Part shown: positions 19,271-20,633 of the stretch, piece by piece | Layout: each line of letters opens with the position of its first letter | Numbering within the stretch: the first letter of the stretch is position 1 | Virus record (IMG/VR): IMGVR_UViG_3300032086_000890 | Span: 1-30,975 of that record | DNA from: a virus | Strand: one strand, 5' to 3' | DNA: 30,975 nucleotides | Made by a program: the position numbers and the translations under genes | The notes under the pieces: model-generated | Told to the model about the DNA's origin: nothing | Seen by the model: only the letters and a program-made list of their open reading frames with translations | Database searches by the model: none

Positions 19271-19719
19271 CGGTCTACGCTAGAAAAGACAAGGCGGCGA
19301 TGTTTACCCACATCACCAAGTTCTTCGACCGGTTTGAGGACGGGAAGCTGGACCTAGTCCGAAAGGAAGACCGCCGCACCCCCGGCCAGCAGAGCCTGCT
19401 ACACATCCTGATCAGAGAGATTGCGATCTACGTGGGTGTGGGTGAGCTGGAGATGAAAGAGAACATCTTGAAGCGCAACAGCGAGGGCGTGTTCCCGTAC
19501 TGGCCGCATTCAATCGAGGAGACCCTCAAGAAGCGATACAAGGCGAAGGCACACAAGACCGGCTACGTGATTCCCGGCTTGGTCCCAAAGCCCGAGAGCA
19601 AGCTGACGAAGAAGGAGGAAATCGAACTGATCGACAGGCTTTACATGCTCGGCGCGGAGTGGGGCGTTGAGTTTTCGGACATCGCACAACAGACAGCGGC
19701 ACGTCGTGGAGCAGCCTAG
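19267..19719 (+). CDS. Early protein with faint NinB-like pattern
   Basis: 150 residues from GTG (GTGA overlap). A strand pair with DGKLDLVRKEDRRTPGQQSL is followed by helices LLHILIREIAIYVGVGELEM. This faintly recalls NinB/Orf, in which strands carrying a basic segment and RTxxQN precede LHAMLxxIA. NinB binds single-stranded DNA and helps recombination. The C-terminal half is Lys-rich and different, so the identification is weak. It lies directly before the methyltransferase. Confidence 0.5.
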   Translation: MTVYARKDKAAMFTHITKFFDRFEDGKLDLVRKEDRRTPGQQSLLHILIREIAIYVGVGELEMKENILKRNSEGVFPYWPHSIEETLKKRYKAKAHKTGYVIPGLVPKPESKLTKKEEIELIDRLYMLGAEWGVEFSDIAQQTAARRGAA

Positions 19720-20633
19720 TGAAAGTGCTGGACCTGTTCAGCGGTATCGGCGGGTTTTCTCTGGGATTGGAAGCGGCAGGGATGCAGACCGCAGCCTTTT
19801 GCGAGTTTGACGATAGGGCGAGGCAAGTGCTCAGAAAGAACTGGCCGACAACGCCGATTTTTGAGGATGTAAGAACGCTGAACAAGGAGTTGTTAGATGA
19901 GCAAGGCGTCAATGACATCAGACTTATTTGCGGGGGATACCCATGCCAGCCTTTCAGCTTCGCTGGTGAACGGCGTGGCGCAGAAGACGACCGTCACCTC
20001 TGGCCTGAAATGTTTAGGCTTGTCCAAGAGCTCAGGCCCGCTTGGGTCATTGGAGAGAATGTTGCTGGGCACATCACGATGGGCCTCGACCAAGTGCTCG
20101 CTGACTTGGAAGCCGCTAACTACTCCACAAGGTCGTTTGTTATTCCAGCTTGTGCCGTTGACGCTCCACATAGACGAGACCGAGTCTGGACTGTTGCACA
20201 CACCAACGGCGAAAGCCAATCAGATGGCCCCGTCAATGAACAGCGGGTGGTGGCGAACTCCCAACGCAGATCAAGGCGGCACACCAAAGGCGTTGTTGGA
20301 GGGAAAGACGAAAAGACCGAGCGGTCACAAAATCCAGATACGACTGCAAGATCAAGTCAAGATGTGGCCCACTCCACGGGCGAGCGAACACAAAGGGGTA
20401 GGTCCAATAGGCAGCAAGAGTCATTCGCACATGCTCGACAAGGGCTACCTTTGCGCTGTAGCGCAACAACAAGACGGAGTCAGTGGCTCGTTGAACCCTC
20501 CGTGGGTCGAGTGGCTGATGGGGTTCCCAATCGGACACACAGACTTAAGCAGCTCGGAAACGCAGTAGTGCCACAGGTCGTGCAGGTGATAGGCGAAATG
20601 ATCATGCAGGTAGAACGTGAGCAAGCTGCGTAA
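19719..20633 (+). CDS. DNA (cytosine-5) methyltransferase
   Basis: 304 residues from GTG overlapping the preceding stop. Transfers methyl from S-adenosylmethionine to cytosine C5. Motifs seen in order: I LDLFSGIGGFSLGLE (4-18), IV GGYPCQPFSFAG with catalytic Cys76, VI ENVAG (113-117), VIII HRRDRVWTVAH (151-161), then a variable target-recognition region (about 160-262) and IX-X RVADGVPNRTHRLKQLGNAV near the end. It probably protects phage DNA from host restriction. The recognition region is hydrophilic and low in complexity, and the same bases encode another protein in the +1 frame. Confidence 0.93.
   Translation: MKVLDLFSGIGGFSLGLEAAGMQTAAFCEFDDRARQVLRKNWPTTPIFEDVRTLNKELLDEQGVNDIRLICGGYPCQPFSFAGERRGAEDDRHLWPEMFRLVQELRPAWVIGENVAGHITMGLDQVLADLEAANYSTRSFVIPACAVDAPHRRDRVWTVAHTNGESQSDGPVNEQRVVANSQRRSRRHTKGVVGGKDEKTERSQNPDTTARSSQDVAHSTGERTQRGRSNRQQESFAHARQGLPLRCSATTRRSQWLVEPSVGRVADGVPNRTHRLKQLGNAVVPQVVQVIGEMIMQVEREQAA
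19897..20568 (+). CDS. Overprinted protein inside the methyltransferase gene
   Basis: 223 residues in the +1 frame, wholly inside the methyltransferase. It is not a random shadow. It contains ordered segments that I recall from independent phage proteins near dcm genes: SGPLGSLERMLLGTS, STKCSLTWKPLTTPQGRLLF, ETESGLLHTPTAKAN, WPTPRASEHKG, and SLNPPWVEWLMGFPIGHTDL at the C-terminus. The frame is open for 672 bases. ATG at 19897 is used here; ATG at 19912 (MTSDLFAGD) is as likely. It covers motif IV through IX of the enzyme. Function unknown; a partner or specificity factor for the methyltransferase is inference. Confidence 0.65.
   Translation: MSKASMTSDLFAGDTHASLSASLVNGVAQKTTVTSGLKCLGLSKSSGPLGSLERMLLGTSRWASTKCSLTWKPLTTPQGRLLFQLVPLTLHIDETESGLLHTPTAKANQMAPSMNSGWWRTPNADQGGTPKALLEGKTKRPSGHKIQIRLQDQVKMWPTPRASEHKGVGPIGSKSHSHMLDKGYLCAVAQQQDGVSGSLNPPWVEWLMGFPIGHTDLSSSETQ

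Follow-up and report, generated by a model that had tools for sequence, protein, structure and literature searches.

A virus locus likely to encode a two-polypeptide cytosine-5 DNA methyltransferase in overlapping reading frames

In a stretch of 30,975 nucleotides of virus DNA (IMG/VR record IMGVR_UViG_3300032086_000890; the whole stretch is referred to here as the window), an open reading frame (ORF) lies wholly within a gene for a C-5 cytosine DNA methyltransferase, in its +1 frame. We think it highly probable, from comparisons of sequence, that the two genes, overlapping in different frames, specify one enzyme made of two polypeptides. The outer gene (alpha; 19719..20633, + strand, GTG start, 304 aa) encodes the catalytic chain, with motifs I–VIII and X. 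The nested gene (beta; 19897..20568, + strand, ATG start, 223 aa) is best read as encoding the missing half of the methyltransferase, a chain comprising the target-recognition (TRD) region and motif IX, which is predicted to choose the DNA sequence to be methylated.

Several kinds of evidence lead to the two-subunit reading: the modules are complementary, alpha being without exactly the TRD and motif IX and beta carrying both; beta is homologous to the in-frame TRD and motif IX of single-chain relatives; selection acts in both frames, with steps in rate at the beta start and stop; Shine–Dalgarno sequences are enriched at beta starts; alpha is kept stop-free through the TRD; in split relatives (the loci L223 and L399, and Firecracker gp6/gp5) motif X follows motif IX in the beta frame; and the AlphaFold model of alpha combines a confident large domain and ordered motif X helices with low confidence for residues 167–271. 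The neighbouring genes encode a DnaD-like helicase loader, a protein with a weak match to NinB/Orf, a YbcO/HNH nuclease and a member of a phage exonuclease family and, to judge from these matches, the surroundings of alpha and beta are a phage replication/recombination block.

The catalytic chain and the nested chain

Alpha matches PF00145 (Pfam, 6.9e-46, residues 1–210), TIGR00675 (NCBIfam dcm, 1.2e-34, residues 3–197) and phrog_363 (1e-83), and its motif residues are invariant among 85 relatives. The catalytic PCQ, ENV and RxR are all present within motifs I–VIII, the Pro-Cys-Gln of motif IV (19941..19949, + strand), which includes the catalytic Cys76, being invariant in 85 sequences. Motif VIII (HRRDR; 20169..20183, + strand) is the last shared motif of the catalytic core ahead of the frame handover, and the alignment of the core to canonical enzymes stops just past it. 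Motif X (LGNAVVPQ; 20553..20576, + strand) is present at the C-terminus of alpha, where it overlaps the end of beta; helices are predicted there, with a pLDDT of 87–97 for the block. Against canonical m5C enzymes, motifs I–VIII align at 2e-36 and motif X at 7e-4 (hhalign, with a very small sequence set), and in profile comparison the gap between these two aligned blocks is exactly the TRD and motif IX. Neither module was found in the alpha chain by profile comparison or AlphaFold, and both were found in the +1 chain.

The alpha model matches HhaI (Foldseek, 2e-16, about 169 columns). Its confident domain spans residues 1–166, and pLDDT is below 50 over nearly all of residues 167–267, so that residues 167–271 are predicted to be a disordered spacer. 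The original prediction had taken residues 160–262 or thereabouts of the enzyme frame for a TRD constrained by the other protein. Instead, across the TRD region (20190..20484, + strand) it is the alpha frame that appears to be the passenger, a disordered spacer, and the beta frame that appears to encode the TRD, on the evidence of alpha pLDDT, substitutions at the beta wobble position and the match of a TRD profile to single-chain relatives. The overlap with beta also spans alpha motifs IV–VIII.

What, then, does the nested frame encode? No convincing match to beta was found in Pfam, NCBIfam or PADLOC families, and a sequence comparison with the PDB gave one chance match at most, no solved structure being convincingly matched. 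Modelled by itself with AlphaFold, beta was poorly predicted (pLDDT 58, pTM 0.24), and the model had no fold match in the PDB (Foldseek). The clearest family match is to phrog_1008, annotated 'DNA methyltransferase', which covers residues 9–219 at 1.4e-31 and is also obtained with all 104 of 104 beta relatives. The sole local match of beta to canonical m5C enzymes lays its C-terminal GSLNPPWVEWLMGFPIGH (20485..20538, + strand) on the motif IX RRLTPKECQKLQGFPDWF, at an E-value of 0.086 that is weak when taken alone (hhalign, with a very small sequence set). A TRD profile built from beta, with mycobacteriophage records left out, matches the single-chain proteins DillTech15 gp66 (7e-11) and Shauna1 gp67 (3e-7) at their in-frame TRD and motif IX, though these E-values were computed on very small sequence sets and the TRD match rests partly on repeated LLPTPxAxDG-like segments. 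Residues 245–451 of the Shauna1 protein are matched by phrog_1008 at 5.8e-67, and the whole protein also matches the alpha family, phrog_363. The +1 protein, which had been set beside the enzyme as a partner of unknown role, thus appears to be part of the enzyme itself, its TRD and motif IX.

How might such a locus work? We suppose that on one mRNA ribosomes would initiate at alpha and, independently, at the internal Shine–Dalgarno sequence of beta. Alpha would form the large domain, with AdoMet binding, the catalytic PCQ loop and motifs I–VIII; it would then read the TRD-coding DNA out of the TRD frame, as a flexible, disordered stretch of about 100 residues, before reaching motif X. Beta would begin with a weakly structured leader laid over motifs IV–VIII and continue into the TRD and motif IX, giving the DNA-reading small domain. 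Alpha and beta would assemble as one enzyme methylating phage DNA (we infer the complex, the translation, the methylation and the target site alike). The suggestion that two proteins from this locus act together in DNA modification is therefore likely to be right, and the modification would probably serve as protection from host restriction.

Selection on both frames and the alternative readings

The +1 frame had been described as open from 19897 to 20568 inside the methyltransferase, with ordered motifs that were not noise; the ORF and every one of the quoted motifs were found, and comparison among relatives confirmed the ORF as a real, selected gene. When the alpha codons of the window were permuted synonymously, the +1 frame contained a mean of 5.6 stops across the overlap, and zero stops were found in 0.035% of permutations. 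Among 79 viral loci retrieved solely with the 59 N-terminal residues of alpha, which precede the overlap (to avoid selection by beta), +1 was stop-free across the alpha-defined overlap span in 73, and +2 nearly always had several stops.

The phase of substitution shifts along the gene. Relatives were compared in 56 pairs that share no row, although the pairs are not tree-independent paths. Upstream of beta, the rates of difference at alpha codon positions 1/2/3 were 0.19/0.12/0.50; from the beta start to motif VIII they were 0.20/0.12/0.31, across the TRD region 0.55/0.38/0.35, near motif IX 0.33/0.17/0.22 and downstream of beta 0.30/0.23/0.61. Position 1 exceeded position 3 in the TRD in 55 of the 56 pairs, and position 3 exceeded position 1 before beta, again in 55 of 56. 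Because alpha position 1 is beta position 3, these regional rates indicate that alpha is the governing frame on both flanks, that the two frames share control of the middle and that beta takes over in the TRD. Synonymous change in alpha falls from 0.48 to 0.34 at the beta start (adjacent 8-codon bins) and rises again from 0.27 to 0.60 at the beta stop. Alpha, for its part, has no stops across the TRD against 447.6 expected from beta-synonymous shuffles of 129 loci, a result conditional on the requirement that alpha reach past beta (few loci were dropped).

Read directly from the sequence, a Shine–Dalgarno AAGGAG (19884..19889, + strand) stands 7 nt before the beta ATG. In relatives, a Shine–Dalgarno match of at least 5 nt was present at 69 of 136 beta starts, compared with 3–15 of 136 at eight control offsets, the beta start being taken in each locus as the first start codon beyond a fixed distance, independently of any Shine–Dalgarno sequence. 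In a few loci, the beta N-terminus is shortened, or there are stops in the N-terminal part of beta. The view that two proteins arise from one locus, the +1 protein being conserved and selected, thus gains support from sequence comparison: homologues of the +1 protein occur outside in-register methyltransferase loci, and the +1 frame shows both stop depletion and purifying selection across relatives.

Could a programmed ribosomal frameshift instead fuse alpha motifs I–VIII to the TRD and motif IX of the beta frame, the fusion being the active enzyme and the internal start incidental? The modules do lie in consecutive frames, always +1 among classified non-single layouts, and single-chain relatives exist, with actinophages mixing split and single forms. 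Nevertheless, we consider a frameshift unlikely, because synonymous constraint on alpha sets in where beta itself starts, some 95 codons ahead of the handover, because that start has an enriched Shine–Dalgarno sequence, and because alpha is maintained open through the TRD; moreover, a single-shift fusion in the nested layout would be without motif X, yet motif X of alpha is conserved. It is more improbable still that beta is an independent accessory protein, such as an anti-restriction factor, which merely overlaps the methyltransferase. Such a protein might well have no known fold or Pfam family, and a long N-terminal leader without counterpart in canonical enzymes, as beta does, but an independent protein of unknown role is disfavoured by the complementarity of the modules (beta has exactly those missing from alpha) and by the single-chain homologues, in which, as in the split relatives, the beta module is part of the methyltransferase chain; and beta was never seen on its own in the loci that it was used to retrieve, 80 viral and 80 bacterial. 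That the +1 ORF is no gene but a shadow cast by codon bias and by the conserved sequence of the methyltransferase is scarcely credible, for although conservation of alpha over motifs IV–VIII alone makes a +1 reading appear conserved, and a +1 ORF like the N-terminal part of beta is open in a canonical streptococcal enzyme too, the idea is rejected on the stop depletion, which goes beyond synonymous shuffles, and on the switch of substitution phase, the TRD changing on the beta wobble position and being far better conserved in beta than in alpha (identity 0.93 vs 0.69 with one relative, L004, and 0.69 vs 0.31 with another, L006).

Layouts among relatives

Relatives of beta, the proposed second subunit, were found in 66 phage records (E 1e-5), in at least 589 IMG/VR viral stretches and in 276 bacterial contig stretches, from many phyla, and beta was in frame +1 of a methyltransferase in 80 of the 80 best viral loci and 80 of the 80 best bacterial loci. 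With layout defined by the frames in which motifs IX and X lie relative to the core, 268 loci were nested (IX in +1, X in 0), 17 were split (both in +1) and 52 were single-chain (both in 0), these counts being made with simple patterns that left some loci unclassified and including some loci redundant between scans; motif IX was in +2 in none of the classified loci. The single-chain phage enzymes carry the TRD and motif IX in frame. In Corndogvirus Firecracker, a split form, gp6 has motifs I–VIII and gp5, in frame +1, has the TRD, IX and X. L223 (JAETPP010000032.1, a Bacillota MAG) and L399 are also natural splits, with many alpha stops past motif VIII and a beta frame that holds the TRD and runs on through IX into X.

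In a quick tree of the core, the nested, split and single layouts grouped separately from almost every canonical enzyme (SH-aLRT 99), the exception being two long-branched rows, labelled canonical, which fall among these layouts. Single and split forms were intermixed in one actinophage group (99), two split forms sat within the nested group, and the starred branches require the split label to change five times or more. On balance, we lean towards the view that these loci belong to a methyltransferase family of phages and bacteria that is both large and old, with catalytic core and specificity domain written in two overlapping frames, the halves evolving at different codon positions, and with lineages that switch among nested, split and single-chain layouts. 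If this is true, the family would be a natural test bed for the origin and persistence of overlapping genes, for which it is unusually clean material: two known modules overlap at length on the same strand, relatives number in the hundreds, and changes of layout can be seen among them. There is also a practical side. Where two ORFs overlap, gene callers and annotators often retain just one, and many phage methyltransferases have therefore probably entered the records lacking the recognition half, or with that half listed as a 'hypothetical protein'; in such cases, attempts to predict specificity, or to clone alpha by itself, would fail.

A different arrangement occurs in Streptococcus phage P0091_40 (L288:1301-1720) and in the locus L293, which have an open +1 ORF over motifs IV–VIII, with canonical IX and X in frame 0. 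The P0091 ORF is annotated (phrog_16143), and the end of the streptococcal +1 ORF (SLSDILEEQVEDKYFLSLKQ) resembles the start of canonical TRDs (e.g. LRDILEPEVPEKYTLTDN in L254); these ORFs may, from their sequences, represent a second kind of dual-frame methyltransferase. In Shauna1 (L289), the TRD-like segments SLPTPRASRG... and LMPTPRATDG... are found in +1 just before similar segments in frame 0, as if the TRD frame had shifted within the gene. The core motifs of Mycobacterium phages Llama (gp74/gp75, L284) and GigiOuiOui (gp65/gp66, L287) are divided between frames before motif VIII in an indel-like manner, each pair being annotated as two DNA methylases; a broken gene, a sequencing error and a further layout are all candidates. 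Lastly, a Roseovarius MAG (OX638333.1) has five equal-score loci on one chromosome (L180–L184); they lie some 46–49 kb apart, or twice some 43 kb around the ends of the record, a pattern that resembles prophages arrayed in tandem or an artefact of assembly.

Comparison with known enzymes

As far as the distribution of motifs indicates, M.EcoHK31I is the closest precedent for the locus in the window, which resembles it yet differs in a defining feature, the placement of the TRD. There too, the gene for the small polypeptide lies inside that for the large one, in a different frame. The window locus is like M.EcoHK31I in having motifs I–VIII and X in the large chain and IX in the small one, and unlike it in that the TRD appears to be in the nested small chain, the alpha frame there being predicted to be disordered. 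In M.EcoHK31I (YGGCCR), a two-polypeptide m5C methyltransferase with I–VIII and X in its large chain and IX in its small chain, the predicted TRD was placed in the large polypeptide (Lee et al. 1995, as described in PMC3404938).

The small subunit of M.AquI (CYCGRG), a two-subunit m5C methyltransferase, carries motif X, and the two subunits share the variable region (PMC3404938). The likeness here is that catalytic motifs and the distal TRD and motif IX are on separate chains; the window locus differs in having motif X in alpha and a beta that is nested in its entirety. A small chain holding both IX and X, a feature of M.AquI, is confined to relatives such as L223 and L399, and it is these split forms, with Firecracker gp6/gp5, that resemble M.AquI. 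Division near this boundary is known to be tolerated by m5C enzymes, the examples being M.AquI, M.EcoHK31I and the fragment complementation of M.SssI (PMC3404938).

A literature search, lying mostly outside subscription journals, found no description of the nested TRD family, its module split or dual-frame selection, and all that it yielded on m5C methyltransferases with overlapping or nested genes was mentions of M.EcoHK31I and M.AquI. Annotated phage homologues of the +1 frame do exist, as had been suggested: phrog_1008 and the ORF pairs of Paenibacillus larvae phages (e.g. TADHANA_54/55) represent the same beta family and, as both overlapping ORFs are annotated in the latter as DNA-cytosine methyltransferase, the ORF pair itself has already been seen. 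These records hold annotation names only. Among single-chain enzymes, Cheoctovirus Shauna1 gp67 and DillTech15 gp66 have a homologous core, TRD and motif IX, and Gordonia Neville gp75 a homologous core and motif IX; they differ from the window locus in that their modules lie in one frame, on one chain.
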